From contig JAENZD010000001.1 of NCBI GenBank assembly GCA_016841445.1, positions 1,116,001-1,180,000 of the forward strand: 64,000 nucleotides of DNA, given 5' to 3'. Below are positions 2,713 to 39,727 of the stretch, in pieces (position 1 is the stretch's first letter; the number at the start of each line of letters is the position of its first letter). Source of the DNA: Anaerolineaceae bacterium (GTDB lineage Bacteria > Chloroflexota > Anaerolineae > Anaerolineales > Anaerolineaceae). The notes under the pieces were generated by a model, which was not told the origin of the DNA, ran no database searches, and worked only from the letters and a program-made list of their open reading frames with translations. The position numbers were made by a program, and so were the translations under genes.

Positions 2713-2738
2713 AATTACTTATTAAAACCTTTTGTGGT

Positions 2739-3764: not shown

Positions 3765-3814
3765 GTCTACTCCTTCTTGTAGAAAAAGAATTGAATGTGG
3801 TAAATCCACACATA

Positions 3815-4426: not shown

Positions 4427-4459
4427 GGTTGGGCTCCTTTAATATTTCCAACTTATCGA

Positions 4460-5287: not shown

Positions 5288-5379
5288 CTGAAAATCCTTA
5301 TTCCTCAATTCTTTCCTGTATTATAATCTGCCGTGTGGATAATTATAATTGGGAAATACTGCAACCTTTTGAGGTATAG

Positions 5380-23100: not shown

Positions 23101-24409
23101 AAACGTGATTAATGATGGGTCGGAAATATACAGCTTATGTAAAGATCTATTCCCAATTTGTCGCAGTATTACAGGGAATGGTGTCCGTAACACTTTGGGA
23201 ATTCTAAAAAACCATTTGCCAGGACTAAAAATTTTTGAAGTTCCCTCAGGGACGAATGCCTTTGATTGGGTTTTACCAAAAGAATGGAATATCATTGATG
23301 CTTATATCATTGATCCCAAGGGGGAAAAGATTATTGATTTCAAGCAATCAAATTTACATGTGGTGGGATACTCGATACCCGTTGATACGACTTTACCTTT
23401 AGAAGAGCTGCAGGAACATCTCTATTCACTGCCGGAGCAACCTTCGGCAATTCCTTATATCACATCTTATTATAAGGAGCGATGGGGATTTTGCATGTCC
23501 CATGACCAACGAGAAAATCTAGAACGTGGCCTTTACACTGTGCATATCGATAGCTCACTTGAAAATGGCAGCTTATCTTACGGCGAATTGATCCTGCCAG
23601 GTCAATCTGACGAAGAGATTTTCTTATCAACTTATATTTGTCACCCTTCTTTAGGTAATAACGAACTATCAGGACCGACTGTAACAACTTTCCTGGCAAA
23701 GTGGCTGATGGGATTGAAACATCGTAAATATACCTATCGCATCATTTTCATCCCTGAAACAATTGGTTCTATAGTCTATTTAAGCCGAAATCTAGAGAAA
23801 ATGAAACAGAATATTATTGCAGGTTTTAATTTAACCTGCATTGGTGATGATCAGAACTATTCCTACCTGGCTTCCAGATCTGGAAATACACTTGCTGACC
23901 GTGTTGCAAAACACGTGTTGTCTAACCTCCACCCCCATTACAACAGCTATTCCTATCTTGAAAGAGGGAGTGATGAGCGGCAGTACTGCAGTCCCGGTGT
24001 AGATTTACCTCTGGTTGTATTGATGCGAACAAAATACGGTGAATACCCCGAGTACCATACTTCTCTTGATAACCTCGATTTGATTTCCCCCGAGGGATTG
24101 TTCGGTGGTTACGATGTTGTAAAGAAATGCATTGAATGTATCGAAGCCAATGAAACACTGACAACAACTGTGTTGTGTGAACCCCAACTTGGAAGGCGAG
24201 GCCTCTACCCTACTCTGAGCACAAAACAAAGCCGTTTCATCGTTCGCGATATGATGAATCTCATTGCTTACTGTGATGGCACTGCCGACCTCATTGAAAT
24301 TGCAGATAGAATTGGTGTACCCCTCTGGAATTTATTTGAGATTGTGACGAATCTGAAAGAGAATGACTTACTTCTCCCCATAAGTGAATTTTCTATCAAA
24401 TCAGAGTAA
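23081..24409 (+). CDS. DUF4910/M28-like aminopeptidase-fold protein
   Basis: A 442-residue protein of the DUF2172/DUF4910 type (polysaccharide biosynthesis protein with an aminopeptidase-like domain). Visible: LCKDLFPICRSITGNGVRNTL at the N-terminus; then LSTYICHPSLGNNELSGPTV, whose His, Asn and Glu resemble the zinc ligands of M28; YLERGSDERQYCSPGVDLP; and a C-terminal winged-helix module (LIAYCDGTADLIEIADRIGVPLWNLFEI). It overlaps the AAC(3)-like gene by 20 bp; a GTG at 23105 with a GGGG ribosome site is an alternative start. Reaction unknown. Confidence 0.8.
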   Translation: MLLKGNKNVINDGSEIYSLCKDLFPICRSITGNGVRNTLGILKNHLPGLKIFEVPSGTNAFDWVLPKEWNIIDAYIIDPKGEKIIDFKQSNLHVVGYSIPVDTTLPLEELQEHLYSLPEQPSAIPYITSYYKERWGFCMSHDQRENLERGLYTVHIDSSLENGSLSYGELILPGQSDEEIFLSTYICHPSLGNNELSGPTVTTFLAKWLMGLKHRKYTYRIIFIPETIGSIVYLSRNLEKMKQNIIAGFNLTCIGDDQNYSYLASRSGNTLADRVAKHVLSNLHPHYNSYSYLERGSDERQYCSPGVDLPLVVLMRTKYGEYPEYHTSLDNLDLISPEGLFGGYDVVKKCIECIEANETLTTTVLCEPQLGRRGLYPTLSTKQSRFIVRDMMNLIAYCDGTADLIEIADRIGVPLWNLFEIVTNLKENDLLLPISEFSIKSE

Positions 24410-24551: not shown

Positions 24552-25688
24552 TTACGATTGATCTTTCTGTATCTTAAATAATCCCACAAATCTATGCCAA
24601 CCCTCTTTGATATCCAGGCGTTTAAGCCGCCAGGTACCGACAATGCCATAGGGTAAGAAAATGACAATCAACATAAATAATAAGCCAAAAACTAGCGGCC
24701 ACCTAGCACCAAACCATGTGTAGAAGAACTGCTGGATCACCTGGCTGATACCAGCCCCAATTATTGGACCGATCAAGGTTCCCATACCACCTAATATCGT
24801 CATGATCAACGCATCTACTGTTGTGACGGCGGAAAGCATATTAGGGGTCGCGCTCATATTCCAAATGGAATAAAGTGCACCAGCCACACCTGCAAAGACA
24901 GAGGAGATAACAAAAGCAACGGTTCGGAATGATACCGGGTTATAGCCTATCATTCTCATACGGTCTTCATTCTCCCGATTTGCAACGACAACATGCCCTG
25001 TTGGAGAATTCGTCATTCGTTTCATCAACAAATACGAGCCAAACAGGAAAACCAAGGTTATAAAATATACAGTTAATCGGTTTTGCGTTGGGTTCAACCA
25101 AACCGGAAGCGGTACACCATGCAATCCCTCATCTGCACCTGTCCACTCATGAAAATCAGTCGCTTTAATCAGGATGAAAAGGGCTTGACCAATAGCCAGG
25201 GTTAACATAGCAAAGTAGGTACCTTTTAGACGTATTGAAGTCGCTGCAAATAAAAGACCGATTAAGATAGAAACCAATAGGACAATCAGGAATACAAAGA
25301 TCAGTACAATGGTTTGAGTTATATCGAGACTACCAATTAGAATTCGATACTGGCTCATAAAATTTGGTGCCCAATGCTTCATTAAAAGAGCAAAGGCATA
25401 CGCCCCCCCTCCAAAAGAAGCCGCATGGCCGAATGAGAGTATTCCCCCGTACCCTATCAGCAGATCATAGCTCATCGCAAATACAGCCATGATGAAGAAT
25501 GTTATAAATTGTCCTTGCCAAAATTTCGTGATGCCTTCATTTAGCCCAGTACCTGTGATCCAATTCATCACAAACGGGAATAAGATCATAATTGCAATAA
25601 AAATCAGAAATCCTCGTTCACGGTTGATCAAACTGCTAATAGTTGTCTTTTTAGTAACGGGTTCCATTGTTATGGGTTTTTCTGTCAT
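24552..25688 (-). CDS. livM: Branched-chain amino acid-type ABC transporter permease LivM
   Basis: A 378-residue membrane permease. Typical LivM blocks: YDLLIGYGGILSFGHAASFGGGAYAFALL, IRLKGTYFAMLTLAIGQALF and TILGGMGTLIGPIIGAGISQ. The start at 25688 has AAGGAG at good spacing. Last gene of the 12-gene minus-strand unit, 7 bp after livH. In other bacteria LIV-type transporters also import urea, short amides and aromatic or dicarboxylic acids, so the substrate need not be an amino acid. Confidence 0.92.
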   Translation of the reverse strand: MTEKPITMEPVTKKTTISSLINRERGFLIFIAIMILFPFVMNWITGTGLNEGITKFWQGQFITFFIMAVFAMSYDLLIGYGGILSFGHAASFGGGAYAFALLMKHWAPNFMSQYRILIGSLDITQTIVLIFVFLIVLLVSILIGLLFAATSIRLKGTYFAMLTLAIGQALFILIKATDFHEWTGADEGLHGVPLPVWLNPTQNRLTVYFITLVFLFGSYLLMKRMTNSPTGHVVVANRENEDRMRMIGYNPVSFRTVAFVISSVFAGVAGALYSIWNMSATPNMLSAVTTVDALIMTILGGMGTLIGPIIGAGISQVIQQFFYTWFGARWPLVFGLLFMLIVIFLPYGIVGTWRLKRLDIKEGWHRFVGLFKIQKDQS

Positions 25689-25695
25689 GCTGTGA

Positions 25696-27189
25696 CTACT
25701 CCTTCTTCCCAAATAGGCCCTGCGGTCTGGCAAGTAAAACAATGATCATGATAATAACGGTGGATGCCTCAGCAATGGCAGTTGACAGTGAGTATTTCAA
25801 TGCAAAATAATCACCAAAAGCACGTGCCATTCCCAGGATCATAGCACCCACGAAGGCACCGCCATAACTCCCCATGCCGCCAATAACGACTGTTATCAGT
25901 CCCTGCGTTTGGTAGTGGTCTCCCATGATAGGTTGGATCGGCAAGAAAGGACCCGCTCCAATACCACCCAAGGCTGCCATAGCAACACCTAAACCAAATA
26001 CAACGGTAAATACTGCTTTCACATTGATCCCAAGGGCTTCAACCATCTGTGGGTCCTGCACACCCGCCCTGATAATCATTCCTAACCGTGATTTTGTCAT
26101 CAAGATGGTTATAAAGATGAACATAATGATCCCTAAAGCAATCACAAATAAGCGGTATGTCGGGATGGTCACACCAACAATATCAATCGTTGCATTTCCG
26201 TTCTGCAGCCACTCCAATAAACTGGCGGCTTTGCCTCGCTGTGCAAACAAAGGCGGGCGAACCATCTGGTATGCCAAAGGATCCCAAAGCAATTGGACCA
26301 GCTCACGAATTACATAGCTTAGACCGAGTGTCATTATGATGATAAATGTTGGACGAACATAGAGGGGGCGAATCAATGTGATTTCTATGACTGCGCCGAA
26401 AGCAAAGCCAAAAATAATTGACACAATGATCGCAATGATGAAGCGCCAGTTACCATTCATCAATAAAATCGTTACCGGTGCGGTCTCCCGAATAAATGTT
26501 GCCTCAACTGCGAGAATGAATAATGCGATCGGGATAATGAGTTTCCTGATCATCTTCTCTTTTGGGGCAAACTCCGACTTCTGACCGGGTTTGGAGGTTG
26601 AAAAAGCTACAAGTGCGCCGCTGATGAAAATCAAAATTGGCCTGAACCAGTATTGTGCTAAAGGCTCCTGGACACTGATCTCTGCCAGTGCATCACCAGC
26701 AGTGGCAGTCGTTGCAGCAACCATAGCCGTATCTGCAAGCCCAAGAATATCCAAGCCGATAAAGCTAACAAAGAATAATAATAGAGATAATAAATAACCT
26801 ATTTTAGGTAAGATTTTTATCCAATATTCCGGAACTTTCCAACGTATCAAATATGGTTTGATGATAGGTGTAATCAATACCCCGCTGGCAAATGCCAAAA
26901 CCTGTGGCAGCAGGCCAAAAATAAAAGTCGGGTTCGTGTATAGCTGCCATCCGATATATGCACCTAACATAAACATAGAACCATGTGCGAAATTCAGGAC
27001 ATCCATCAAGCCAAAGATCAACGTCAACCCGCCTGCAACAAGGAAGAATAATGAGCCAAGGGTCAGACCCGAGAGCGCAGTTCGGATAAATGTCTGCTGC
27101 CCTGCGGTAATGTACAGCAAGGCTAAAACACCCGCTGTGACGATGACAGCGGCTATGATAATCAAAGGTTTTTTATTCTTAGCTTTCAT
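25696..27189 (-). CDS. livH: Branched-chain amino acid-type ABC transporter permease LivH, with large insert
   Basis: A 497-residue permease. LivH blocks: LTLIFGLMDVLNFAHGSMFMLGAYIG near the N-terminus, TLGLSYVIRELVQLLW and VVIGGMGSYGGAFVGAMILG near the C-terminus. LivH is usually about 290-300 residues; the extra about 200 (roughly 85-270) add several further hydrophobic segments between the first and later core helices. It overlaps livF by 11 bp and has GGAG before the ATG at 27189. Confidence 0.88.
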   Translation of the reverse strand: MKAKNKKPLIIIAAVIVTAGVLALLYITAGQQTFIRTALSGLTLGSLFFLVAGGLTLIFGLMDVLNFAHGSMFMLGAYIGWQLYTNPTFIFGLLPQVLAFASGVLITPIIKPYLIRWKVPEYWIKILPKIGYLLSLLLFFVSFIGLDILGLADTAMVAATTATAGDALAEISVQEPLAQYWFRPILIFISGALVAFSTSKPGQKSEFAPKEKMIRKLIIPIALFILAVEATFIRETAPVTILLMNGNWRFIIAIIVSIIFGFAFGAVIEITLIRPLYVRPTFIIIMTLGLSYVIRELVQLLWDPLAYQMVRPPLFAQRGKAASLLEWLQNGNATIDIVGVTIPTYRLFVIALGIIMFIFITILMTKSRLGMIIRAGVQDPQMVEALGINVKAVFTVVFGLGVAMAALGGIGAGPFLPIQPIMGDHYQTQGLITVVIGGMGSYGGAFVGAMILGMARAFGDYFALKYSLSTAIAEASTVIIMIIVLLARPQGLFGKKE

Positions 27190-27940
27190 GGGCTTTCTCC
27201 AATTCTTCACGCGTTTTTATGCTGGCACCCAGGTAATGATGAATCAGTTCAGAATCGTGTACCAGGTCTTCCATTAAGCCAGATTTGACACTCTTTCCAT
27301 CATCAATGATGGTATAGCGCTCTGCTAGTTGGCTTGCCATGATGAAATTCTGCTCAACCAATAAGACGGTTGTTGTTTCACTCAATGCTTTGATTGCTTC
27401 CATCATTTGCTGGATGAGGATCGGAGCAAGCCCTTCACTGGGTTCATCGATTAGAAGCAGCTTATTGTCCGGAACCAGAGCTCGTGCAACAGCCAGCATT
27501 TGCTGCTGTCCACCCGACAAATGATTGCCGGGTAATTTATATAAGCGTTTCAGATCCGGGAATAGGCCAAAAACAAATTCTGAATGTCGGTCAAAATCAC
27601 CTTTCTTCCGCTCAGCCAACTTTAAATTTTCAAGCACAGACAGTGACCGGAAAATTGCCCTGTGCTCGGGCACATAACCAATACCCAGGTTGGCGATATT
27701 GAACGCTCGTTTCCCCTGGATTTCCATGCCATTAAAAACGACCCTCCCTTCTTGCGGTGGTGTCAGACCAAGAATAGACTTGATTGTCGTTGTTTTACCT
27801 GCTCCATTTCGTCCAAGCATGACGGTAATCGAACCTTTGGGTACGGTAACGGTTACACCCTCAAGAATGTGAAATTGACCAACAAAGGTTTGGATGTTGT
27901 CAACGACCAGCAGATCAATTTGTTTCGTTGGATCACTCAT
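27179..27940 (-). CDS. livF: Branched-chain amino acid-type ABC transporter ATPase LivF
   Basis: A 253-residue ATPase. Walker A GRNGAGKTT, Q-loop/LivF hallmark GYVPEHRAIFRSLSV, signature LSGGQQQMLAVARAL, Walker B LLLIDEPSEGLAP, and VEQNF with the switch region. It overlaps livG by 4 bp and livH by 11 bp, pairing with LivG as the second ATPase. Confidence 0.93.
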   Translation of the reverse strand: MSDPTKQIDLLVVDNIQTFVGQFHILEGVTVTVPKGSITVMLGRNGAGKTTTIKSILGLTPPQEGRVVFNGMEIQGKRAFNIANLGIGYVPEHRAIFRSLSVLENLKLAERKKGDFDRHSEFVFGLFPDLKRLYKLPGNHLSGGQQQMLAVARALVPDNKLLLIDEPSEGLAPILIQQMMEAIKALSETTTVLLVEQNFIMASQLAERYTIIDDGKSVKSGLMEDLVHDSELIHHYLGASIKTREELEKAHES

Positions 27941-28707
27941 GCTAATTCTCCATATAAGTCACCAAGATATGCTGTTTGGACCTGTGGATTATTTGTAATT
28001 TCGTGGGGACTGCCCTCAGCAAGGATTTTCCCCTGGTTCATCACAGTAACAGTATCGGATATAGACATCACCATATCCATGCGATGTTCCACTAATATGG
28101 CAGTCCTTTCTTTCAGATGAACGACTTTATCAATGATTTCAATTAGTTCAGGCACTTGTTCGGAAGACATCCCTGCTGTTGGTTCGTCAAACAGTAGAAG
28201 TTCCGGATCACAGGCTAACATGATCCCCAATTCCAATTTACGTTTTTCACCATGAGGTAAATTCCTGGCAAGAACCATTTGCCTTCCGGTCAAACCCACT
28301 AAGTCAATAATTTCTTGAGCTTTGTCAATATATGCCTGGAAACTACTTGCTAGTCTCAGTATTTTGAAACTATCTTTGCCCATTGCCTGCGCTGCCAATC
28401 GAATATTTTCAAGGGCAGTGAGGTTTGAAAAAATATTCGTTATTTGATAAGATCGTCCAATGCCTAAATGAGCTCGTTTTTGTGGTGTGATGTGTGTAAT
28501 ATCTTGATTCTTATAGAAAACCTGGCCAGATGTCGGCGGCATAACACCGCTGAGCAGGTTAAATAAGGTTGTTTTCCCTGCCCCGTTCGGACCTATTATG
28601 GCATGCATTGTCCTTTTTTTTATTTGAATACTAACATCATCGACTGCAACCAGGCCTCCAAATCCTTTGGATAGGTTTCTGGACTCTAAAATGATCTCGT
28701 TTTCCAT
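27937..28707 (-). CDS. livG: Branched-chain amino acid-type ABC transporter ATPase LivG
   Basis: A 256-residue ATPase. Walker A GPNGAGKTT, LivG hallmark GIGRSYQITNIFSNLTALENIRLA, signature variant PHGEKRKLELGIML (LivG proteins have LxxGxxRxLE rather than LSGGQ), Walker B LLLFDEPTAGMS and switch His in VEHRMDM. Ribosome site AAGG before the ATG. It follows the binding-protein gene across an attenuator hairpin. Confidence 0.93.
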   Translation of the reverse strand: MENEIILESRNLSKGFGGLVAVDDVSIQIKKRTMHAIIGPNGAGKTTLFNLLSGVMPPTSGQVFYKNQDITHITPQKRAHLGIGRSYQITNIFSNLTALENIRLAAQAMGKDSFKILRLASSFQAYIDKAQEIIDLVGLTGRQMVLARNLPHGEKRKLELGIMLACDPELLLFDEPTAGMSSEQVPELIEIIDKVVHLKERTAILVEHRMDMVMSISDTVTVMNQGKILAEGSPHEITNNPQVQTAYLGDLYGELA

Positions 28708-28817
28708 TGGACCTTCTTTTGTGTGTTTTATAAATAAATTTAATAATGACAGAAATACTCGAAATAGCTAGTATGTGTAAAGATATTGGATTTCTTAAAA
28801 AAGAAAATTTAACTAAA

Positions 28818-28842
28818 GGGGAGAGACTTATTGTCCCTCCCC
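28818..28842 (-). terminator. Attenuator hairpin between the SBP gene and livG
   Basis: A 9-bp stem with one G-U pair (minus strand GGGGAGGGA/TCTCTCCCC, 7-base loop) is followed by TTTAGTTAAATTTT. It lies just after the stop of the binding-protein gene, mirroring the hairpin after phnD. Confidence 0.6.
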
Positions 28843-28863
28843 ATGTATTTAATCCGGTAAAAA

Positions 28864-30306
28864 CTACTCTACGGGAACGGTTGGCAGGTCACCGCAGCGT
28901 TCTGCATAATCGCCAGCTAGCGTGCAGGGCACACCAAGTTCATCATAGGCGGAAACATAAACTGTCTCAAAGAACTCATATTCGTTGATGCCATCATCAT
29001 CGAGGTCAGGATCAAGGTTGACCAGGCGTAAAATGTTCATGGGTTGTTCGCAGACATGGTCTTCTGGACGAATGTGGTAGGTGCCTTTTGGACCTTCAAA
29101 CATGAGGCCTTCGAGAGCAGGGATCATTGCCTCACCTGAGGTGTCGCCGCCAGTAGCCTCAAGGGCTGTTGCAAGAGCGATCGCAGATGCCATACCGCCA
29201 GCTGTGAACAAATCAGGATATGCATTGTATGCGCCATCAGCTTCATCTTTATAGGTTTCGAAGTGATTCTCAATCAACCAATCATTGACTGCATTGTCCG
29301 GCACGGTGTAATGATAGACATTCAAACCAACAGTGCCCAAAACATCCTCACCAAATACAGCGGTGAATGAGGCATTGTCGCCAAAACCTGTACCAACGGT
29401 CATTGTTTCCAAAGCACCCATATCAGCTAAGGCCTGGAAGAGTGTGATATAGCCAGTGCCAGCCCATGTCAGGAACAGGTTTTCAGCACCTGAATCCATT
29501 GCCTGCTGGATGTAGGGCGTGAAGTCTGTTGTTTCAAATGGTGCGTAAATGTCGGCAACAAGTTCACCGCCAAATTGTGCTACGGAATAGGCAAGTGCTG
29601 CACCGGAACCCTGGCCAAACGCGTTGTCAACACCGATGTGAGCGAAGTTTGGTCCAACGTTTTCGATCAGGTATTTCGCAATGATCAGTGTGTCATCAAA
29701 GCTTGTGCGTGATGTACGGAAGACATAGGGATTGAAGTAAGCACCGGTGGTGAAATATGATGCAGCTGGGTCAACCATTAGGATGATCTCGTTCTCCAAA
29801 GCGACATTTGTCAACGCAATTGCGCTTGCAGAAGAAACTGGACCCTGGAGCAATTCCACACCATCTTTTTCGATCAGCTCCAATGCCAGAGAGACTGCAT
29901 TTTCAGGAATACCTTCGGAATCTTTGACGATCACTTCAACAGGTCGATTGGCGATGATATATCGCCCCTGGTCATCCGTCTGACCACCAGACATATACTC
30001 AAGACCCATCATGAAGCCTCGCTGCTGCTGAAGACCGTAAAGGGCCATGGAACCGGACATCATGCCGATCTGTCCGATCTTCAGGACTGGTCCCAACTCA
30101 GCAGGTTCTTCATCAGTTGTCACGACTTCTTCGGTTTCATCCACTACCTCTTCGGTCTCTTCAACGATAGTTTCAGTTTCCTCGACAACTTCTTCAGTCT
30201 CTTCAACTACTGGCGCTTCTGTCTCAGTGACCTGCTGTACACATGACGTGACCAGCAAAGGTACGATCACAAGCATTGTCAACATAAACATTTTAAACTT
30301 TTTCAT
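28864..30306 (-). CDS. livJ: Branched-chain amino acid-type ABC transporter substrate-binding lipoprotein
   Basis: A 480-residue type 1 periplasmic-binding protein of the Leu/Ile/Val-binding class. A lipoprotein signal ends in LLVTSC; an acidic EETEEVV-type linker follows (residues about 30-70). The receptor fold begins with VLKIGQIGMMSGSMALYGLQQQRG and contains LLQGPVSSASAIALTNVALENEIILMVDPAASYFTTGAYFNPYVFRT and a C-terminal MIPALEGLMFEGPKGTYHIRPEDHVCEQPM. Ligand is not deducible. Ribosome site AAGGAG. First of five transporter genes, 78 bp after the hydrolase gene. Confidence 0.9.
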   Translation of the reverse strand: MKKFKMFMLTMLVIVPLLVTSCVQQVTETEAPVVEETEEVVEETETIVEETEEVVDETEEVVTTDEEPAELGPVLKIGQIGMMSGSMALYGLQQQRGFMMGLEYMSGGQTDDQGRYIIANRPVEVIVKDSEGIPENAVSLALELIEKDGVELLQGPVSSASAIALTNVALENEIILMVDPAASYFTTGAYFNPYVFRTSRTSFDDTLIIAKYLIENVGPNFAHIGVDNAFGQGSGAALAYSVAQFGGELVADIYAPFETTDFTPYIQQAMDSGAENLFLTWAGTGYITLFQALADMGALETMTVGTGFGDNASFTAVFGEDVLGTVGLNVYHYTVPDNAVNDWLIENHFETYKDEADGAYNAYPDLFTAGGMASAIALATALEATGGDTSGEAMIPALEGLMFEGPKGTYHIRPEDHVCEQPMNILRLVNLDPDLDDDGINEYEFFETVYVSAYDELGVPCTLAGDYAERCGDLPTVPVE

Positions 30307-30384: not shown

Positions 30385-31188
30385 TTAATTATAATCACTA
30401 TTTTTCATCACAAAACCCAGCAGTAAAGTGTTTAAAATTGCGGGTTTTTCCAGGCATAAGGCATGTCCTGATCCAGGGACAAGAACCATTTCGCTTCCAG
30501 GTATGTGGTCAGCGATTATTTCTGCATATTCTCGTCCTTTGATCAAGTCTTCCTCACCTGCAATCACAAGGGTTGGTAAAGTGATACCGGATAATTGGTC
30601 TGTAATATCCAGTTCATAGAAAGCCCGCATCAGTCTGGCAAGTGCTGGCATATCTATCATTGCATATCTTTCAACTGATGATTCAATGAAAGATTGGTTA
30701 GCTTTTATCCAATCTTCTGCAAAATTCATGTGATAGGATGTCTTCAATAATAATTCTGGGTCATCTTTTTCTGCAGCCATCAGCCAGGGATAGGTCTGAG
30801 CTTTCAATAACGGATGAATTTCGCTGACGCCATCGATCACGATCAGGGATTGGGTCATTTTAGAGTGGCGAATAGCAAAGACCATGCTGACTTCTGCTCC
30901 ATAGGATATACCGGCAATGTGTGCTTTCTTTATTTCCAACGCATCCAGAAGTTCTGCTAAATCATCAGCATGCTGCGCCATGGAATAAGGTTCTTCGGGG
31001 TGATCTGACTGCCACATTCCCCGGCAGTCATATAGAAGAACACGCAGGTGTTTTTCCAAGGCAGTCTTCTGATATACCCAGCTGGCTGTACCCATCATGA
31101 TTCCATTGGAAAGCACCAGTACAGCTGCGTCCTCAGGACCTGATAATTCATAATATAGATTAATTCCGTTGATGGGTATCTTCGGCAT
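30385..31188 (-). CDS. Alpha/beta hydrolase
   Basis: A 267-residue alpha/beta-fold hydrolase. Nucleophile elbow GISYGAE (Ser about residue 98), acid in LVIAGEEDLIKG, His in VPGSGHALCLEKP; the oxyanion region is LSNGIMMGTASW. It resembles the 3-oxoadipate enol-lactonase/esterase group. It sits between the thiolase genes and the transporter genes in the 12-gene unit, so it may open a lactone or cleave an ester or thioester of the imported compound; this is inference from position. Confidence 0.85.
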   Translation of the reverse strand: MPKIPINGINLYYELSGPEDAAVLVLSNGIMMGTASWVYQKTALEKHLRVLLYDCRGMWQSDHPEEPYSMAQHADDLAELLDALEIKKAHIAGISYGAEVSMVFAIRHSKMTQSLIVIDGVSEIHPLLKAQTYPWLMAAEKDDPELLLKTSYHMNFAEDWIKANQSFIESSVERYAMIDMPALARLMRAFYELDITDQLSGITLPTLVIAGEEDLIKGREYAEIIADHIPGSEMVLVPGSGHALCLEKPAILNTLLLGFVMKNSDYN

Positions 31189-31205: not shown

Positions 31206-31622
31206 TTATTCGGGTTGAAAGGCTAGATATGTCGATTTTTGATCTTCATCGCCACGAGTGATCGTGGTCATGACCATCTCTGTCCCGATCTTGATATTCT
31301 CTGGATGACCGACATCCACATTTAATATCTGTGCAGAGACGCGTGGTCCTTCATCCAGAGCGATGATTCCTACGCAGTATGGGTTCTTGCCATCATAACC
31401 TGCTTCAGCCATTTTAACAGGGGGTACAGAGATTACAGTGTACGCTAACAGCTTGCCTTTTCCGGAAAAGGTGATTATCTCGGTCTGGTCGGATTGACAT
31501 TTTGGACAAATTTTCCGCTGGGGTGCAGTGTATGCTCCGCATTGCTTGCATTTTGAGCCGATCAAAAGAGAATCATTCAGAGCTTTATAAAAATCTTTAC
31601 TCGCCATCGTGTAATCTGTCAT
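31206..31622 (-). CDS. DUF35 protein: Zn-ribbon plus OB-fold acyl-CoA-binding partner of the thiolase
   Basis: A 138-residue protein. The zinc ribbon is C-x2-C...C-x2-C in GSKCKQCGAYTAPQRKICPKCQS; the OB fold is GKGKLLAYTVISVPP and later NPYCVGIIALDEGPRVSAQIL. DUF35 proteins associate with SCP-2-type thiolases and, in archaea, bridge thiolase and HMG-CoA synthase. The ATG at 31622 has GGAGGG 6 bases upstream and comes one base after the thiolase stop; the longer upstream frame only reads thiolase DNA out of frame. Confidence 0.88.
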   Translation of the reverse strand: MTDYTMASKDFYKALNDSLLIGSKCKQCGAYTAPQRKICPKCQSDQTEIITFSGKGKLLAYTVISVPPVKMAEAGYDGKNPYCVGIIALDEGPRVSAQILNVDVGHPENIKIGTEMVMTTITRGDEDQKSTYLAFQPE

Positions 31623-31623
31623 C

Positions 31624-32889
31624 TTAATCCCTCCGCTCAAATATGTTGACCACGCAGGTTTGCCCTGAACCACCCACATTATGTGCCAAGCCAAAGCGTA
31701 GATCCCCTCCCACTTGACGTTCTCCAGCGATCCCACGTAACTGCTTCCAGATTTCAATAACCTGTCCGACTCCAGAAGCACCGACTGGATGTCCTTTTGC
31801 CTTCAAGCCACCGGATGTGTTGATCGGTCGAGCCCCATCCCGTGCCGTACGCCCATCGATCGCTGCTTTCCATCCTTCCCCCCTGGGGAAAAATCCCAGG
31901 TCTTCAGATGCCATGATCTCAGCAATCGTAAAACAATCATGGACTTCAGCGATATCTATATCCTCTGGTGACAAACCTGCCATTTCGTAAGCTTGTTTTG
32001 CAGCAGTTTGTGCAGCAGGTATCGATGAGAGGGTGTCACGTTCCGTCAATGCCCCATCACTTGCTTGACCGCTGCCGATCAAGTACAGGGGTGTGTCGGT
32101 ATATTCCTTTGCAAGGTGTTCCGCGACTAACAAAACAACTGCCCCGCCATCAGAAACTGGGGAACAATCGAATAATGCCATCGGCCAGGCTATATTCGGA
32201 TTGCCTTTCGGATCTCCCAAAAACTCAATCTCGCTAGCCCACTCAGGTACAGGACGACCTTTTTGGATCGCTTTAGATTTTTTTGCCGCCATGATGTCGG
32301 AGATTGTCTGGTTAAACTGGGCTTTATTATTTAATGCGCCATTTTGATGGTTTTTAATGCTGACATGATAAAAGGCTTCTATAGGTGCATCGAATTCTGC
32401 CATATAAGCAGTTGCCATTGCAGCATAAAAACCTGGGAAAGTAAATCCTGCGGGAATCTCAAACTGGGTATCTGCTGCAGTTGCTAATGCTTCTGTGACC
32501 TGTGAGATGTGCAGGTCTGTCATTTTCTCCAACCCGCCAACCAAAACAACATCATATTCACCTGATGCGATTGCTAAGGCAGCCTGCCGGAGGGCAACAC
32601 CACCGCTTGCACAGGCATCTTCAATACGCAGGGTACTGATGGGTGAAAGCCCAACCCAGCTTGCAACAATGGGTGCAAGGTGCGCTTGTTTTTCGAACTG
32701 ATCGCTTGAAAAATTGCCGAGGTATAGTGCTTCAACCTTCTTTGGGTCGAAACCCTTATCGACGCTTTGTTTCATCTCCAGATAGGCTTCTACAAACAAA
32801 TCTCGGGAGCTTTTTTCTGGGAAAGACCCAAACTTGCTCATGCCTGCGCCTACGACTGCTACGCCTCTCGGCCATTTTGAATTTGTCAT
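31624..32889 (-). CDS. SCP-2-type thiolase (acetyl-CoA acetyltransferase-like)
   Basis: A 421-residue thiolase-fold enzyme. The nucleophile Cys is C93 in EDACASGGVAL; the second-site residues are His in EVHDCFTIAE and His in KAKGHPVGASG. This non-canonical group (no C-terminal CxGGG of classical thiolases) condenses or cleaves acyl-CoAs and usually needs a DUF35 partner, which is the next gene. ATG at 32889 with AAGGAA upstream. The sequence alone does not say whether it works in the biosynthetic or degradative direction. Confidence 0.9.
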   Translation of the reverse strand: MTNSKWPRGVAVVGAGMSKFGSFPEKSSRDLFVEAYLEMKQSVDKGFDPKKVEALYLGNFSSDQFEKQAHLAPIVASWVGLSPISTLRIEDACASGGVALRQAALAIASGEYDVVLVGGLEKMTDLHISQVTEALATAADTQFEIPAGFTFPGFYAAMATAYMAEFDAPIEAFYHVSIKNHQNGALNNKAQFNQTISDIMAAKKSKAIQKGRPVPEWASEIEFLGDPKGNPNIAWPMALFDCSPVSDGGAVVLLVAEHLAKEYTDTPLYLIGSGQASDGALTERDTLSSIPAAQTAAKQAYEMAGLSPEDIDIAEVHDCFTIAEIMASEDLGFFPRGEGWKAAIDGRTARDGARPINTSGGLKAKGHPVGASGVGQVIEIWKQLRGIAGERQVGGDLRFGLAHNVGGSGQTCVVNIFERRD

Positions 32890-32899
32890 TCGTTGTTCC

Positions 32900-33214
32900 T
32901 TATTTTTCGACTTTTTGATAAAAACGAGCTTCAGATAAGTTTTCAGGTCGCGCTTGTTCAGATGAGGCAGCAAGTGCCATCTTCAACTCATCATCTTTGA
33001 TTTCGAAAAGACCTTTGAATTCTCCTGTGAATCCCAATGTATGCGCAGTTTGCTGCATGGTTATCTTATCGCCTTCAAGTTCATAAGTTCCGCTGGAAAC
33101 GATACCCATAGGTTCATACTGTGCTTCAAATGAACCATCTTCTTTGAATTCGAACCATAACCCCTCATAGGGCTGTCCAGCTTTTTGTGCCCATGTACCG
33201 ATTATTTCACTCAT
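32900..33214 (-). CDS. Small unknown protein, lipocalin-like strand pattern
   Basis: A 104-residue protein without signal peptide. It begins SEIIGTWAQKAGQPYEGLWFEFKEDG, then SGTYELEGDKITM and FEIKDDELKMAL: alternating strands like the small beta-barrels that measure a G-x-W start followed by F-x-F-x-x-D-G. No catalytic motif. Being in the 12-gene unit with 10-12 bp gaps on both sides, it probably acts with the CoA-transferase and thiolase, perhaps binding the acyl chain. Start at 33214 placed by AGGAG. Confidence 0.65.
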   Translation of the reverse strand: MSEIIGTWAQKAGQPYEGLWFEFKEDGSFEAQYEPMGIVSSGTYELEGDKITMQQTAHTLGFTGEFKGLFEIKDDELKMALAASSEQARPENLSEARFYQKVEK

Positions 33215-33226
33215 CATCACTCCTAA

Positions 33227-34543
33227 TTAGAAGATTAATTTTGGAACAATCCCTAAGCGGTGCGCTTCATCCCTGATCCAATCCCTGAAATTCGGATGGG
33301 CTATTTTAATCAGAGCTTCCATTCTGTCTTTTACACTTAAGCCTCTTAATTCAGCTATGCCGTATTCAGTGATAATTGTGTCAACATCCTGGCTGGGAAC
33401 TGTCACACCTGCTCCAGGGGCTAATGTTGGGACAATTGTGGAAATACTGCCGTTCTTGGCAGTTGATCTCAAGGCGATGATCCCTCGACCGCCTTCTGAT
33501 AACTGTGCACCGCGATGGGTATCAAGCTGGCCGCCTGTACCGCTGAACTGCCGGGTACCGATGCTTTGGGAACAGACTTGCCCAAGAATATCAACTTGTA
33601 AAGCCGTGTTCACACTGATCATTTTATAATTCTTGGCAATGACATACGGGTCATTGGTATATCTTCCCCGGTACATTTCAACATCCTTGTTATGATCAAG
33701 GAAGTTATATAATTTTTTGGTTCCCAGGGCAAATGCGCCAACGATTTTTCCGGGATGCAAAGTCTTCCTACTGTTGTTTACAACCCCTGCCTCTACAAGG
33801 TCGACCATGCCATCAACAACCATTTCAGTATGGATTCCCAGATCTTTGCGTTCCATAATGAATGCTGTGATTGCGTTAGGAATCCCGCCAATCCCAAGCT
33901 GGATGGTTGAGCCATCCTCAATGAGTTCCGCGATGTAGCCGCCGATTTGCTGTTCGATATCCGACGGTTGTGCAGATGGCAGCTCAACCACCGGAACATG
34001 GTTCTCAACAACAAAATCGACTTCGGAGATATGTACCAGGGTGTCCCCATAAGTCCAGGGCAGATTTTCATTGATTTCCAGGATTTTAAGATCAGCAGCT
34101 TCAAAAAGATCCTTTTGGACGATCAATCCAATGGATAATGATAAATAGCCATCTTCATTGGGTGGTGTTGCAGTCCCCCAAAAGACATTCAATTTTCCTT
34201 TTGTTGAAAAGAGTTTATCTGTTCCGGCGCGGTTCAGATTATTTGGAACGTAAGAAACGCGGCCTTCTGGGTGGGTCGCTCGATCTGTCGGACTATAAAA
34301 CCAGTTTTCATTGAATATGTGACCAGCCATCTCCGGTTTGGTAAAAATATCGTACGGACGCATTGGAAGACAGGTCCAAAAATGGATATTATCGAGGATT
34401 TTTGCTCTTTTCGCCAATGTCGTCAGCAAGCCAACCGGTTCTGCACCGGCAATCCCAACGCCAATCGTATCGTTAGTCTTAACTTTTGAGACAGCTTCTT
34501 CAAGAGAAATGTATTTATCTTCAAATTGCTTGAGCGACGGCAT
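33227..34543 (-). CDS. Acetyl-CoA hydrolase/CoA-transferase family protein (4-hydroxybutyrate/butyrate CoA-transferase-like)
   Basis: A 438-residue family I CoA-transferase. Family blocks: SLEEAVSKVKTNDTIGVGIAGAEPVGLL, LGIGGIPNAITAFIMERKDLGIHTEMVVDGMVDLVEAGVVNN, QSIGTRQFSGTGGQLD and DVDTIITEYGIAELRGLS. It probably activates a carboxylic acid by transfer of CoA from acetyl-CoA or a similar donor. Its place next to a KAS III-like enzyme, a thiolase and an importer suits activation of an imported acid. A good AAAGGAA ribosome site. Confidence 0.88.
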   Translation of the reverse strand: MPSLKQFEDKYISLEEAVSKVKTNDTIGVGIAGAEPVGLLTTLAKRAKILDNIHFWTCLPMRPYDIFTKPEMAGHIFNENWFYSPTDRATHPEGRVSYVPNNLNRAGTDKLFSTKGKLNVFWGTATPPNEDGYLSLSIGLIVQKDLFEAADLKILEINENLPWTYGDTLVHISEVDFVVENHVPVVELPSAQPSDIEQQIGGYIAELIEDGSTIQLGIGGIPNAITAFIMERKDLGIHTEMVVDGMVDLVEAGVVNNSRKTLHPGKIVGAFALGTKKLYNFLDHNKDVEMYRGRYTNDPYVIAKNYKMISVNTALQVDILGQVCSQSIGTRQFSGTGGQLDTHRGAQLSEGGRGIIALRSTAKNGSISTIVPTLAPGAGVTVPSQDVDTIITEYGIAELRGLSVKDRMEALIKIAHPNFRDWIRDEAHRLGIVPKLIF

Positions 34544-34562: not shown

Positions 34563-35570
34563 CTAAGGCATTCGAAAGGCAACAGCTGCCTGGTTATAAC
34601 CAACACCAGAACCAACAAATACGACGAGATCTCCGGATTTTATTTTTCCAAGTTTCCTTGCGTCATCAAAAGCCATTGGTAAGCAGGCTGAACCGGTGTA
34701 ACCCCATTTATCCATGATCCAATGCGCTTTTTCAAGCGGAAGGCCAACTTCTTCCATCACTAGTTTGATGCTGTTCAATCTGACCTGTGTAAAGATCACA
34801 AAGTCAATATCGCTGATCTCAAAATTGCCGTTCTTTGCAACCTCTCGGATTCGCTTTGGCCAACCTTCATTATTGACCTCTGGTGGAAACGGTGTGACCA
34901 GTTTAACCTGTGTTTTTCCACTTTTTACATTTTCAACCGTGGCTGGTTCAGCAACGCCCCCGGCATAGATACCCCAATTCTTGTAATATGAGCCATCAGC
35001 GAAAATTGAAGAAGAAATAAAACCAGGTTCATTTGAGGGCGCAACAACAGCCCCACCCGCACCGTCACCATAGAAAAAACTGACAACATCATGTTTGACA
35101 TCTGCGAACCGGTGCATCATGTAAGCACCAATCACCAGGATGTTCTTGAGATGCGGATTTGTACTGATCAGGCCAGCGGCTAATGCTAATCCTGTTGGAA
35201 AACTGGCACAAGCGCATCCAACATCAAAAGTGCCCGCGTTTTTAGCACCCAGTTTCTCCTGGACAACAACAGAGGTTGCAGGAGTAATATAGTCAGGGGA
35301 ATCTGTTCCAAGGATGATGAGATCCACGTCATCAGGGGTGATCCCGGCATCTTTAAGAGCATCTTTTGCGGCTTCTACAGCTAAATCAGAAGTAGATTGA
35401 TCTTCATCTGCGTAAAAACGCGTCTTAATGTTTGAACTTTCCTCAAATTTACCGACGACTTCAGCTAATTTTGGACTGACCTCACCCATCCATTGGGCAA
35501 ATGTTTGATTTGTTATTTCATTATTGGGAACATAACGTCCAGTGCCAATAATATTGCCGTACCTTTCCAT
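34563..35570 (-). CDS. KAS III (FabH)-like beta-ketoacyl synthase with altered triad
   Basis: A 335-residue thiolase-superfamily protein of the FabH type. C121 in DVGCACASF is the expected nucleophile. The His of the usual H-Q-A-N motif is T261 (VIFTQVRLNS) and the Asn of G-N-T-x-S-A is Y291 (WGYTGSACLPMA); the 30-residue spacing between them equals that of E. coli H244/N274. Without His and Asn it is unlikely to decarboxylate malonyl-ACP as FabH does; acyl transfer to another nucleophile or a non-decarboxylative condensation is more likely. ATG at 35570 with GAGGT upstream. Confidence 0.85.
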   Translation of the reverse strand: MERYGNIIGTGRYVPNNEITNQTFAQWMGEVSPKLAEVVGKFEESSNIKTRFYADEDQSTSDLAVEAAKDALKDAGITPDDVDLIILGTDSPDYITPATSVVVQEKLGAKNAGTFDVGCACASFPTGLALAAGLISTNPHLKNILVIGAYMMHRFADVKHDVVSFFYGDGAGGAVVAPSNEPGFISSSIFADGSYYKNWGIYAGGVAEPATVENVKSGKTQVKLVTPFPPEVNNEGWPKRIREVAKNGNFEISDIDFVIFTQVRLNSIKLVMEEVGLPLEKAHWIMDKWGYTGSACLPMAFDDARKLGKIKSGDLVVFVGSGVGYNQAAVAFRMP

Positions 35571-35616
35571 TTTTACCTCACTTCTGATATCTGACGTTTG
35601 CTGACGAAAGAAACAG

Positions 35617-36381
35617 TTATGTGCCCAATACCATTCCACCGTCGATGCTTATTACTGCTCCATGAATATAGGATGCTTCTTCACTAGCCAGCCAGCAATA
35701 TAAATTTGCAACATCCTCAGGAACACCCATCCGGCCTAATGGCGTTTTTGCGGCAAGTCCTTCTAATATCTTTTCAGGCATTTTTTGAACCATTTCCGTC
35801 AATATGAATCCTGGGCAGACCGCATTGACACGGATATTGTAACGTCCTAATTCTCGAGACCAGGTCTTGGTCATCCCTATCACACCGAATTTAGTTGCCG
35901 CATAATTGGTTTGGCCAAAATTCCCATATAATCCAACGATGGACGAGGCATTCAGAATGACCCCCCCACCCTGTTTGATCATCTGGGGTGTAACAGCCTG
36001 GGCGCAGTTGAATACTCCTTTAAGGTTGACTTTGAGTACCAAATCAAAATCATTTTCTGACATCTGGCTGACGACTTCGCCACCTTTGTATTTCACAAAC
36101 AAACCATCACGGGTTATGCCGGCGTTATTGACTAAAACATCCGCGCGACCGTAATTCTTTACAACATCATCAACCCACGCTTGGGCTGCTTCACGATCTG
36201 TAACATCAACCTTATAAAAGGTTGTACCTTTTCCCAGTTCTTGAGCAAGAGCTTGTCCCGCAGTTTCATCCACATCGCACAGAACAACTTTTGCTCCCTC
36301 ATTCACAAATTTTATAGCAGTGGCTTTCCCAATTCCCGCTGAACCACCAGTAATCAGACATACTTTGTCTTTTAGACGCAT
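35617..36381 (-). CDS. SDR, FabG/acetoacetyl-CoA reductase-like
   Basis: A 254-residue short-chain dehydrogenase. TGGSAGIGKA for NADP(H), NNAGITRDGL, Ser in LNASSIVGLYGN, YAATK and the C-terminal SYIHGAVISIDGGMVLGT, all as in FabG/PhaB. It would interconvert 3-oxoacyl and 3-hydroxyacyl thioesters. First gene of the 12-gene unit, with AAGGAG before the ATG, and directly downstream of the repeat-containing promoter at 36454-36496. Confidence 0.88.
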   Translation of the reverse strand: MRLKDKVCLITGGSAGIGKATAIKFVNEGAKVVLCDVDETAGQALAQELGKGTTFYKVDVTDREAAQAWVDDVVKNYGRADVLVNNAGITRDGLFVKYKGGEVVSQMSENDFDLVLKVNLKGVFNCAQAVTPQMIKQGGGVILNASSIVGLYGNFGQTNYAATKFGVIGMTKTWSRELGRYNIRVNAVCPGFILTEMVQKMPEKILEGLAAKTPLGRMGVPEDVANLYCWLASEEASYIHGAVISIDGGMVLGT

Positions 36382-36453: not shown

Positions 36454-36462
36454 ATTATAGCA
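36454..36462 (-). promoter_or_regulatory. Extended -10 promoter of the 12-gene unit
   Basis: TGCTATAAT on the minus strand (TATAAT at 36454-36459) lies about 73 bp before the SDR start codon. The -35 position holds no TTGACA-like hexamer, as expected of a promoter that depends on an activator. Confidence 0.65.
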
Positions 36463-36465
36463 ATT

Positions 36466-36496
36466 GAAGATTACACGAAAGTTACGTGGAGGTTAC
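36466..36496 (-). promoter_or_regulatory. Three 11-bp-periodic direct repeats, putative SARP operator
   Basis: On the minus strand GTAACCTCC, GTAACTTTC and GTAATCTTC begin at 36496, 36485 and 36474, exactly 11 bp apart. The last heptamer (GTAATCT) is 8 bp from the -10 box. Known SARP activators bind heptamer direct repeats at 11-bp spacing with the same 8-bp gap. The adjacent gene at 36512-39727 encodes a protein with a SARP-type winged helix and BTAD domain. Confidence 0.7.
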
Positions 36497-36511: not shown

Positions 36512-39500
36512 TCAGGATTCTTCCCATTGGTTTACCATTTGGTGATAATGATCTATCGTTTGTTGCGATACCTGGCTTTGCAGCTGGCTTTGAAAGATAT
36601 CCTGACATTGGGTAAAAATTTTCCGTACCAAACCTGGCCTGTTTGTCTGGCTGTAAATGGTCATTTGAGCTCGATAAGCGGGTTCCCATAAATTGTCTTC
36701 ACCCAGCACTTTATAGGTAATTTCTAAAGCTTCTTCGTACTTTTCTGCTTTCATTAGATATTCGATGTAATTGTCCGATGCATTTAAGAATTGACGATGA
36801 TAGTACTGTTCTTCAATCATCAGCCATTCTTGCATTTGGCTATCTGAAAAGTAATGTCCCTGATAAAGTTTTATTGCATCATGTAAATCCATCAGATTTC
36901 CCGAACTGATCTTGCCAATCATGATATCAGCATCGACCAGTACCCGTGCTTTCGGGTTTATCCGGTAGCGATCCTGATTTCTTTCAATAAAATATGGATC
37001 CTCACCCTTCTGTCGATTGGGTTCTAAGATTGTGTTAACAGTACTTAAAATGACTTTGAGATAATTTGCAGCATTCTCAACGGATGTTTCCGGCCAGAGC
37101 ATCGATAGGATCTGGTCCCGATGCAGCCATTTTCCGCGATATCCAATCAGGATTTGGAATAACTGCAGAGATTTTTCCCGTTTCCAATCTTGTCTTTCGA
37201 TCGGTTCTAAACCTCGCCAAGCCTTGAAGTTCCCCAGCGTACGAACCCAAAGTGTATATCCCGGGTGATAATCGAGATCAGCATACCCCCGGATATCCAT
37301 TAGTTTTGATATAAATTCTTCTTCAATCCCATTTTGTCTCGCTGATATCAAGAGAGGTATGATATCATCTCGATCTCTAAGCCCCATTAAGGATTCGCTT
37401 GTCAACAGGAAACCATAATCATGTTCCTTCACAATCCCTAATAATTTTTCCAAATAACCATAAGCTGTATTTGAATAACCCTGTTTCCATGACTTCAATG
37501 CTAACCACAATAGAGAAGCTGCATGAATAAATGGATCTTTAACTTTTATTGCTGAAGTTTCAGCTGTGGTTAGATAATGTTGTGCGACCTCAAAATTTCC
37601 AGACAGGACTGCGCCTGCACCTAAAGATAGCTGGATCAGGATACTGATCCATTCATCACCTGCTTTTTGGGCAATTGCCAACGATTTAGATGCCATTTCT
37701 TCAGCACCAGCAAGATTTCCAAAATACCCCAAAGCACGGCACATCCCCCACAAAGGTTCAACATGTATCCGGGTTACGTCGACTTTATTGATCGCCTTCT
37801 GAAAATATTCCATAGCCAGATCAAATTGATTGGCTTCAAACGGGTTTTGAGATTTTAATAGGATTGCATGCCCAAGGCGCATATAGCCCACAGATTGAAT
37901 GAAGGTGGATTTAAGATTATTTCCCAACTCAATCCCTTGTCTTGCATACTTTTCAGCTCTACTGATATCACCCTTAATCGCATAAAACAAAGATAACAGT
38001 AAAGTGCTTTCTCGATGAAAGCGCTGTGGTCTGGAAATTGATAATGGTGGGTGGTCAGCTTCATGGTCGTTAAGAAGTTCTATGCCTTCATCGAGTTTTC
38101 CTGTTCTCAAGAATATCCGCGCCTGGATGAGGTCCGTTTCCATATCAATATCTGGACGTAGTTTTCTAGCGTCGGACAGCAGCGCCTGTGCAGTATCCGG
38201 GTACCCTAAATTCAATTGATTTTCAGAAATAAGAACCTTGAGGTCTGCAACTTCTTGCCCCATTTGTGAAGGGTCCAATAATTGCAGCGCGTTTTGAAGC
38301 AGTTGATCAGCATTAATTGGGCGTATCGTATCAAGAAAGACCTGTGCCTGACCACGAATTGCTAAACTAATTCCCAAATTATTCTTCGCATTTCTGTAAA
38401 TACGTTCAGCTAAATGGTAGTTTTCAAGCGCAGCCTCAAATTTTCCAAGATATCGATTAACCTCACCGAGTAAGTAATTAATGTAGGGGAGATTTCTCCG
38501 GATTTTTTCGGGAATTTCGTGGCACCAATAATTAATCGTTTCATGCCGGCCCTCACTAATCATCTTATCGCCAATAGATTCAAGAATTTGATTGATTTGC
38601 TGGTAATCACCGACTGAGAACAAATGATACAGTGCTTCTTCCCAGTATTCATGTGCCCTAAAATAACTGGCGATTTTCTGATGAAGTTCCTTTTTCCGTT
38701 CTGGATCCTTTTGAAGCCGATTGGCTAAGAACTCCCTAAATATTTGGTGATACCGATAAACACCCGGTCTCAATTCCTCAATAAAGAAACCAGATTTTTG
38801 AAGCTGCCGTAAAAGCTTATCGCTATCATCTCTGGTAAGCAGGAAATCGCATGTTGCGCTATCCAACTTTGAGAGAATAGACGTATGCAGTAAGAACGCT
38901 TGAACATCAGGTTCTAACCCCTCCAAGATCTCGTCAGCAAGATATTCAAACAAGACATTTCTCGACAAGCGATTATCTTCCAGAACCTGGCGTATGGTCA
39001 CATCAGGGTTCCGATCCAAAGTTTGCCAGATCATTTGAAGACCAATTGCCCAACCTTCTGTTTGATTAAGCAAATTTGCAGCATCTTCTTTTGAAAGTGA
39101 AATGCCGTAATGACGATCAAACAATTCTTCAATTTCTGATTCTTTGAAAGTTAAATCTTCTTTTGAAATTTCAAGTAATTTATTCTTAACACGCCACTTA
39201 TTGATATCTGAAAAATTAAGATGGTGGCGTGTAGCAATAATAAGATGCATGTGATTTGGAAGGTTTTCAATCAACCAATTAACATAGGCTAATATCTCAG
39301 GGATATCAGCCAGTCGATGGAAGTCATCAATGATAAAAACTGAATTTCCATGGTTTTCGATTGACAGGGCATTTACAAAAGCTATCAATGCTTCTTGTGG
39401 TGTCCCATCTGGCATTTCAAGAATTCGCAGCGCTTCACTGCCAATTGTGGTTTGGCCCTGGTTAAATGCGGAAAATAGTTTTGCCAGGAACAATCGAGGA

Positions 39501-39727
39501 TCCCGATCTGTCCCTGATACCGTGAACCAGAATACTGGCAGATGTAGTCCATCCAGGAAAGAAAGAAGTGCGGTACTTTTTCCATATCCTGTGCCGGCTA
39601 CCAGGATTGTAAGTGGGTATTGAAGAGAACGCAGGAGCTTCTGCTGGATCCTCTCGCGCTTCATGACTCTGGAATGGGGAGCGGGAGGATTTAATTGGCT
39701 GAGAATGATCAGGTTTCGAATAGTCAT
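36512..39727 (-). CDS. SARP/BTAD-type transcriptional activator with STAND ATPase and TPR domains
   Basis: A 1071-residue MalT-like regulator with a different DNA-binding end. Residues about 20-330: ATPase with Walker A GTGYGKST (45-52), Walker B-like SVFIIDDFHRL and ATRHHLNF sensor. About 330-840: helical repeats of TPR type (for example LGISLAIRGQAQVFLDTI). About 850-930: winged helix (LQLFQILIGYRGKWLHRDQILSMLWP). About 935-1071: bacterial transcriptional activation domain (MEEQ/EWLMIEEQYYHRQFLNASDNYIEYLM). Likely switched by a ligand and ATP. It sits head-to-tail upstream of the 12-gene unit and is its probable activator. Confidence 0.88.
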   Translation of the reverse strand: MTIRNLIILSQLNPPAPHSRVMKRERIQQKLLRSLQYPLTILVAGTGYGKSTALLSFLDGLHLPVFWFTVSGTDRDPRLFLAKLFSAFNQGQTTIGSEALRILEMPDGTPQEALIAFVNALSIENHGNSVFIIDDFHRLADIPEILAYVNWLIENLPNHMHLIIATRHHLNFSDINKWRVKNKLLEISKEDLTFKESEIEELFDRHYGISLSKEDAANLLNQTEGWAIGLQMIWQTLDRNPDVTIRQVLEDNRLSRNVLFEYLADEILEGLEPDVQAFLLHTSILSKLDSATCDFLLTRDDSDKLLRQLQKSGFFIEELRPGVYRYHQIFREFLANRLQKDPERKKELHQKIASYFRAHEYWEEALYHLFSVGDYQQINQILESIGDKMISEGRHETINYWCHEIPEKIRRNLPYINYLLGEVNRYLGKFEAALENYHLAERIYRNAKNNLGISLAIRGQAQVFLDTIRPINADQLLQNALQLLDPSQMGQEVADLKVLISENQLNLGYPDTAQALLSDARKLRPDIDMETDLIQARIFLRTGKLDEGIELLNDHEADHPPLSISRPQRFHRESTLLLSLFYAIKGDISRAEKYARQGIELGNNLKSTFIQSVGYMRLGHAILLKSQNPFEANQFDLAMEYFQKAINKVDVTRIHVEPLWGMCRALGYFGNLAGAEEMASKSLAIAQKAGDEWISILIQLSLGAGAVLSGNFEVAQHYLTTAETSAIKVKDPFIHAASLLWLALKSWKQGYSNTAYGYLEKLLGIVKEHDYGFLLTSESLMGLRDRDDIIPLLISARQNGIEEEFISKLMDIRGYADLDYHPGYTLWVRTLGNFKAWRGLEPIERQDWKREKSLQLFQILIGYRGKWLHRDQILSMLWPETSVENAANYLKVILSTVNTILEPNRQKGEDPYFIERNQDRYRINPKARVLVDADIMIGKISSGNLMDLHDAIKLYQGHYFSDSQMQEWLMIEEQYYHRQFLNASDNYIEYLMKAEKYEEALEITYKVLGEDNLWEPAYRAQMTIYSQTNRPGLVRKIFTQCQDIFQSQLQSQVSQQTIDHYHQMVNQWEES

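Follow-up and report, generated by a model that had tools for sequence, protein, structure and literature searches.

What controls the metabolic and transport genes that follow a large regulator gene in an Anaerolineaceae genome, and do three short repeats between them serve as the operator? In the window (the whole 64,000-nucleotide stretch of DNA that was analysed), the minus strand carries three GTAAY-led heptamers in exact 11-bp steps, followed by 8 bp (TCAATTGC) and an extended -10, all lying between the regulator stop codon and an SDR gene that starts at 36381 (Table 1). The initial annotation had described the repeats, their spacing and the gap in these terms, and a reading of the minus strand shows them to be exact. 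It had also suspected a non-actinobacterial genome, and both the host (Anaerolineaceae, Chloroflexota) and, by their titles, its relatives are just that. According to the initial annotation, the repeats bound by actinomycete SARPs stand, as a rule, 8 bp from the -10; here, too, heptameric direct repeats with an 11-bp spacing occupy the -35 region, the proximal one 8 bp from the -10. Between 36300 and 36640, a sigma-70 promoter scan of the minus strand listed no pair of -35 and -10 elements. The triple-repeat pattern, which was composed from the site itself after the site had been seen, has a single occurrence in the window and none across 100 shuffles; a search of the 3.35 Mb genome for its two-copy form yields just the two overlapping halves of the 36454-36496 site. 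The three-repeat site is real and not a product of chance. It is highly probable that it forms part of an activator-dependent promoter of a 12-gene set for CoA-thioester metabolism and uptake, switched on by the adjacent MalT-SARP hybrid, and the original interpretation as a SARP operator is well supported.

Table 1. Features of the regulator, operator and downstream genes, in window coordinates.
Feature	Position	Strand	Remarks
Regulator, N-terminal MalT-like ATPase + TPR, C-terminal winged helix + BTAD	36512..39727	-	1071 aa
C-terminal SARP module, aa 810-1071	36515..37300	-	AF2 model, Foldseek, profile
Distal repeat GTAACCT	36490..36496	-	present in 9/9 aligned sequences
Middle repeat GTAACTT	36479..36485	-	11 bp from next repeat
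Proximal repeat GTAATCT	36468..36474	-	end 8 bp ahead of -10
Extended -10, TGC TATAAT	36454..36462	-	TATAAT = 36459-36454, TGC before it
SDR (FabG/acetoacetyl-CoA reductase-like), first gene downstream	35617..36381	-	
KAS III/HMG-CoA synthase-like enzyme	34563..35639	-	
Acetyl-CoA hydrolase/CoA-transferase family	33227..34543	-	
Small DUF5640-like protein	32900..33220	-	26.0 bits, under cut-off 28.5
Thiolase-family protein	31624..32973	-	
ChsH2-type OB/zinc-ribbon protein	31206..31781	-	
Alpha/beta hydrolase	30385..31188	-	
Branched-chain-type ABC importer	24552..30306	-	
Importer gene, LivK-like	28864..30306	-	
Importer gene, LivG	27937..28707	-	
Importer gene, LivF	27179..27940	-	
Importer permease	25696..27210	-	
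Importer permease	24552..25742	-	

What kind of protein is the regulator? In a search with its N-terminal 809 aa, residues 7-382 match MalT (PDB 8bob, E 8e-33); the NCBIfam MalT model matches with E 2e-70, scoring under the NCBIfam cut-off, and a Walker A motif (AGTGYGKST) and an IIDD motif can be read in the N-terminal half. The C-terminus holds a winged helix (about aa 824-927) and then a BTAD (aa 947-1058), the latter at 36.6 bits in Pfam (cut-off 22.1) and the former, as Trans_reg_C, at 20.2, under its cut-off of 26.2. A profile search with the C-terminal 262 aa finds AfsR (E 3.7e-15) and EmbR (E 1e-5), and also designed TPR proteins, which match on the BTAD helices; a single-sequence PDB search with the C-terminus found no SARP, whereas the profile searches did, and the winged helix alone gives only weak response-regulator matches. 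The AlphaFold2 model of the SARP module, made from the window and named-locus sequences, has a pLDDT of 95.7, and every one of its six Foldseek matches at E≤1e-3 is to AfsR or EmbR. By VIA Z score, too, AfsR (19.2 and 18.3) and EmbR (18.1 and 17.8) lead, the next (11.9) being a winged helix alone. As judged by profile and predicted fold, the winged-helix/BTAD part, with its OmpR-like winged helix ahead of the BTAD, is a SARP domain. The receiver domain of an OmpR/PhoB response regulator is absent from the Pfam matches at E≤1e-3, and the protein has the MalT-type ATPase half of MalT/LAL proteins without their C-terminal LuxR-type helix-turn-helix. Canonical large SARPs carry the SARP domain N-terminally; the regulator departs from them in having it at the C-terminal end of a MalT-like protein. 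The claim that a gene with a SARP-like winged helix and BTAD lies immediately upstream stands, with the C-terminal placement of the module as one correction.

A second large regulator gene came up in the same analysis (L189; G000:C6:620500-632500, positions 933-5740), encoding 1082 aa with a C-terminal BTAD match. Next come small ORFs in tandem, four in number and alike (47, 63, 53 and 53 aa), which end in GAPDSTGGIGM or GAPDSTGGIGMQ and have a period of 195 bp, and after them a 203-aa ORF that was read by eye as a membrane protein. The small ORFs are possibly a peptide cassette beside a sensor-activator.

Downstream of the operator, the SDR gene opens a run of 12 same-strand genes encoding CoA enzymes and a Liv importer, in agreement with the metabolic and transport set of 12 genes that had been claimed there. 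A gap of 156 bp separates LivK from LivG, and the twelve genes would presumably be read as a single transcript. The combination of enzymes and importer suggests that an organic acid is imported and then processed in a CoA-dependent way, the substrate itself being a guess. A canonical large SARP belongs to an actinobacterial secondary-metabolite cluster; here, the neighbours are CoA enzymes and Liv transport genes. Just beyond the end of the Liv genes, on the plus strand, lie an aminoglycoside 3-N-acetyltransferase-family gene (22321-23100) and, beside it, a gene for a DUF4910/DUF2172 protein with a winged helix (23081-24409).

Is the arrangement conserved? Among 61 genomes, most of which are MAGs, so that absence may reflect incompleteness, the regulator is matched in 22 at E≤1e-60 (the three weakest, G038, G052 and G059, being partial) and the KAS III/HMGS-like protein in 21, with both together in 19. 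A plain regular expression finds the repeat pair with its -10 at 17 of the 21 HMGS loci; at another (L036) the site is present with TATAAA as the -10, and three (L044, L045 and L047) have no site. Nine sequences were compared in full: the window, seven others of its genus and one from another genus of the same family, comprising all eight genus loci with an HMGS-like gene plus one from outside, with none dropped. On average, the majority letter makes up a fraction of 0.97 in the GTAA(C/T) columns and of 1.0 in the three TA..T columns of the -10, as against 0.69 in the spacers and 0.52 and 0.49 in the two flanks. Because the alignment on the site is ungapped, flanks that contain indels could be more similar than these figures show. 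The initial annotation had proposed such an alignment, looking for repeats that hold while the flanks drift, and in the genus, the family and beyond, the repeats, the 11-bp spacing and the 8-bp gap are indeed kept as the flanks drift; the refuting outcome that it had named, loss of the repeats where relatives retain regulator and operon, did not occur. Many sites of relatives show two visible repeats only.

The spacing can be followed further with a matrix built from 15 sites, at 15 of the 21 HMGS loci, some of which are shared with the genomes scanned. When run on 38 SDR upstream regions held out from training, it detects a site in 34; in two of the misses (L100 and L104) the SDR gene lies deeper inside and the site closer to the regulator, and in the other two (L109 and L160) there is no site at the threshold. 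Across 53 SDR upstream regions, with related genomes counted separately, GTWAY pairs up to 40 bp apart number 65 at 11 bp and 20 at 22 bp, and at most six at any other spacing; the reversed sequences of the same regions have none at 11 or 22 bp. An 11-bp pair is present in 46 regions; in 35 of these, TANNNT follows at the distance of the 8-bp gap, and at any other offset it is seen at most three times. On reversed sequence, the matrix gives one match of at least 16 bits in 938 kb. A chance origin is ruled out by these reversed-sequence controls.

A first contig scan for relatives found none; a query with the regulator alignment found them, and 79 named loci, from the best 80 of 110 confirmed relatives, were scanned. 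By their titles, all 79 are from Chloroflexota except one. After ten loci with less than 300 bp downstream were set aside, 69 loci from these best 80 of 110 remained, and an operon gene was counted as next when an SDR, HMGS-like or CoA-transferase relative lay no more than 2.5 kb further along the same strand. Where the next gene belongs to the operon, 39 loci have the site and three do not; where it is another gene, four have it and 23 do not. When the ten loci that share training sites are removed, the corresponding counts, again from the best 80 of 110, are 29, 3, 4 and 23 (Fisher p 2e-9). The three loci with an operon gene and no site in the interval are L096, L101 and L109, and L096 has a site 1.4 kb downstream. 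With training loci included in both counts, the regulator 3'-end intervals of the loci from the best 80 of 110 hold 46 matches (43 loci) in 38,640 bp, against three in 1.72 million strand-bp outside them.

Bellilinea caldifistulae GOMI-1 (L074), a cultured relative, has both the operon and the site. Several variants were seen among these loci. At L157, L158, L159 and L167, the three repeats are followed by TTAAAA or TTAATA instead of TATAAT. Chloroflexus-type loci (L102, L106, L113, L114 and L125) have a three-repeat version with GTTACC/GTAACC or GTAACT/GCAACC, which precedes a gene read by eye as acyl-CoA ligase-like and in some cases overlaps the regulator stop codon; two of the five reach the matrix threshold. 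The locus from outside Chloroflexota, L126 (Brevibacillus formosus, NZ_PXZL01000013.1), encodes a full-length relative of the regulator with 25% identity; there is no site on its 3' side, where the next gene looks TetR-type-like by eye.

Does the site belong to the regulator gene or to the operon? At L085, L086, L087, L094, L095, L103 and L121, the 3' side of the regulator faces Liv genes on the opposite strand, and at some other loci no operon gene was seen. The HMGS gene was sought in 16 genomes picked from the loci without a site at the regulator, and 13 have it. In 12 of the 13, the SDR gene is preceded by a site, which scores at least 23 bits in ten and 17-18 bits in two (L168 and L169); the exception is L160. 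By contig coordinates, the distance from site to regulator is about 67 kb in G061, 74 kb in G064 and 49 kb in G062. At three more separated loci (L038, L041 and L042), all of which were used in training, the site is likewise with the operon, and for L042 no regulator was found. Since the site stays at the operon when the regulator is some 49-74 kb away, it belongs to the operon promoter. The site as a mere feature of the regulator 3' end is ruled out, as it remains with the operon when the two genes separate.

How many such sites does a genome have? A sequence model (R1) was made from 23 sites, hand-picked for diversity and partly common to the scanned genomes. In the 61 genomes it gives 14 matches at E≤0.023, one in each genome, and all 14 lie within 2 kb upstream of an HMGS-like gene. 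Since 13 of the 14 had themselves built the model, the news is the absence of other strong sites: a wider regulon, for which a genome-wide motif scan had initially been proposed, did not emerge among the strong R1 matches in these 61 genomes. Weaker matches up to E 1 number 32, three of them at expected places (G013, G027 and G055). With stricter filters, R1 missed or truncated sites that had been seen by eye in G003, G022, G027, G043 and G055, so the statement of one site per genome is limited to strong sites.

In 150 genomes sampled from the class, where overlap with the R1 training sites is possible, R1 gives 19 matches at E≤0.05, again one per genome, and the regulator is found in 32 genomes at E≤1e-120. 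Site and regulator occur together in 13 genomes, the site only in six, the regulator only in 19 and neither in 112 (Fisher p 2e-6). One of the six site genomes without a regulator at E≤1e-120 (L183) has a diverged regulator nearby. Of 18 new class sites, several lie ahead of SDR, HMGS-like, hydrolase or LivK relatives, or of a gene read by eye as acyl-CoA ligase-like. At the other five of the six (L172, L177, L184, L185 and L186), the stretch examined shows no operon relative, and the sites at L177, L178, L184, L185 and L186, with no such gene downstream, may be chance matches. At L172 itself, the site is strong, with three to four repeats and a good -10, and lies close to the end of a contig (about 1480-1540 of 1604); the search at E≤1e-120 found no regulator in its genome, G098.

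Could the protein that binds be another one altogether? OmpR/PhoB-family response regulators also bind 11-bp direct repeats, and the letters of the repeats here are presumably similar to those of Pho boxes. The winged helix is common to both families (PhoB 1gxq, Z 10.5), and in Streptomyces the sequences bound by AfsR and by PhoP overlap, according to the AfsR study (PMC10936776). That the site is a Pho-box-like target of such a response regulator, and the adjacent SARP-like gene incidental, is nevertheless improbable, since strong sites number about one per genome and stand at the HMGS-like operon with no dispersed regulon, and site and regulator co-occur both at the regulator loci and in the class sample.

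How would the MalT-SARP hybrid work? The N-terminal MalT-like ATPase/TPR half is predicted to sense an inducer and ATP, and this would release the C-terminal winged-helix and BTAD domains. The released domains would bind the 11-bp repeats head-to-tail on one face of the helix, fill the position of the absent -35, and keep RNA polymerase and sigma region 4 at the extended -10, in the manner of AfsR at afsS; transcription would be expected to start some 7 nt past the -10. A side-by-side dimer may occupy the proximal pair of repeats, and in the genus of the window the distal repeat may be bound by a third protomer. The regulator might also bind the repeats and repress, or work both ways, as is suggested by RslR1 of Streptomyces bottropensis, which represses rslR2 according to part of a review (PMC10972967); this is equally improbable, given that no -35 was found at the promoter and that the repeats sit where AfsR activates, as described in passages of the AfsR study (PMC10936776). 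Activation by the MalT-SARP hybrid is thus the preferred reading.

That the repeats are accidental or structural, with no regulatory role, is scarcely credible: they are short, and no Rfam family (Rfam search) or tandem array (tandem-repeat search) is reported at them, but they are conserved among drifting flanks, with a fixed spacing and a fixed distance to the -10, and the site persists away from the regulator gene. An ECF-type promoter also seems a poor fit: such promoters typically have 16-17 bases to the -10, whereas GTAAC here stands 10 or 21 bases ahead of it.

How far does SARP-type activation reach? Passages of a 2024 review describe SARPs as exclusive to actinobacteria, and large SARPs as carrying the SARP domain N-terminally (PMC10972967); among the open-licence papers listed in literature searches, none was a study of SARPs in Chloroflexota, going by titles and abstract openings. 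Here, a SARP-type module and operator occur in another phylum and another architecture, which suggests that SARP-like gene activation is wider than described so far. On balance, it is likely that SARP-type activation is old in bacteria and not specific to actinomycetes, and that Chloroflexota have MalT-SARP hybrids with a reversed domain order, serving about one catabolic operon each, in which the sensor and the letters read have changed but the geometry of the operator has not. The linkage of regulator, operator, promoter and target extends over many Anaerolineae and, in a weaker form, to Chloroflexus. This offers a comparison case for the evolution of the SARP-polymerase contact, a natural experiment on specificity in which spacing and position are equal and the base-reading residues differ, and a handle on gene regulation in the largely uncultured Anaerolineae. 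The predicted logic is that of a sensor swap, with a MalT-type ATP switch driving a SARP output.

Among known systems, MalT shares the N-terminal ATPase half; it ends in a LuxR-type helix-turn-helix, in place of which the SARP module stands here. EmbR of Mycobacterium tuberculosis (2fez, 2ff4) has the same winged helix and BTAD fold (Z 18.1) but, according to the AfsR study, a C-terminal FHA domain (PMC10936776). PimR, a SARP-LAL protein, likewise combines a SARP domain with a large ATPase half and acts through three heptameric repeats with 4-bp spacers on a single target gene; on the other hand, its SARP domain is N-terminal, its heptamer is CGGCAAG, and its operator, in an actinomycete antibiotic cluster, does not overlap the -35 (PMC5930380).

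The closest comparison is with AfsR of Streptomyces coelicolor, which shares the winged helix and BTAD fold over their full length and whose afs box likewise has two 11-bp direct repeats in the place of the -35. According to passages of the AfsR study, it activates from an afs box at -40 to -19, centred at -29.5, where R92 contacts T-38 and T-27 (PMC10936776). If TATAAT is taken as -12 to -7, the repeats here start at -49, -38 and -27, so the proximal two agree in register with AfsR to within about one base. The two differ in phylum and target, here Chloroflexota and a CoA-thioester/Liv-transport gene set, and in domain order, the SARP domain of AfsR being N-terminal and followed by NOD and TPR (PMC10936776), whereas here it is C-terminal. 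The base-reading residues of AfsR are given there as T88 and R92, with R87 making a backbone contact (PMC10936776); T88 and R92 align with V83 and T87 of the module, so these base-reading contacts are not conserved, whereas R87 aligns with K82, which is invariant in 44 sequences, and W74 with W69.
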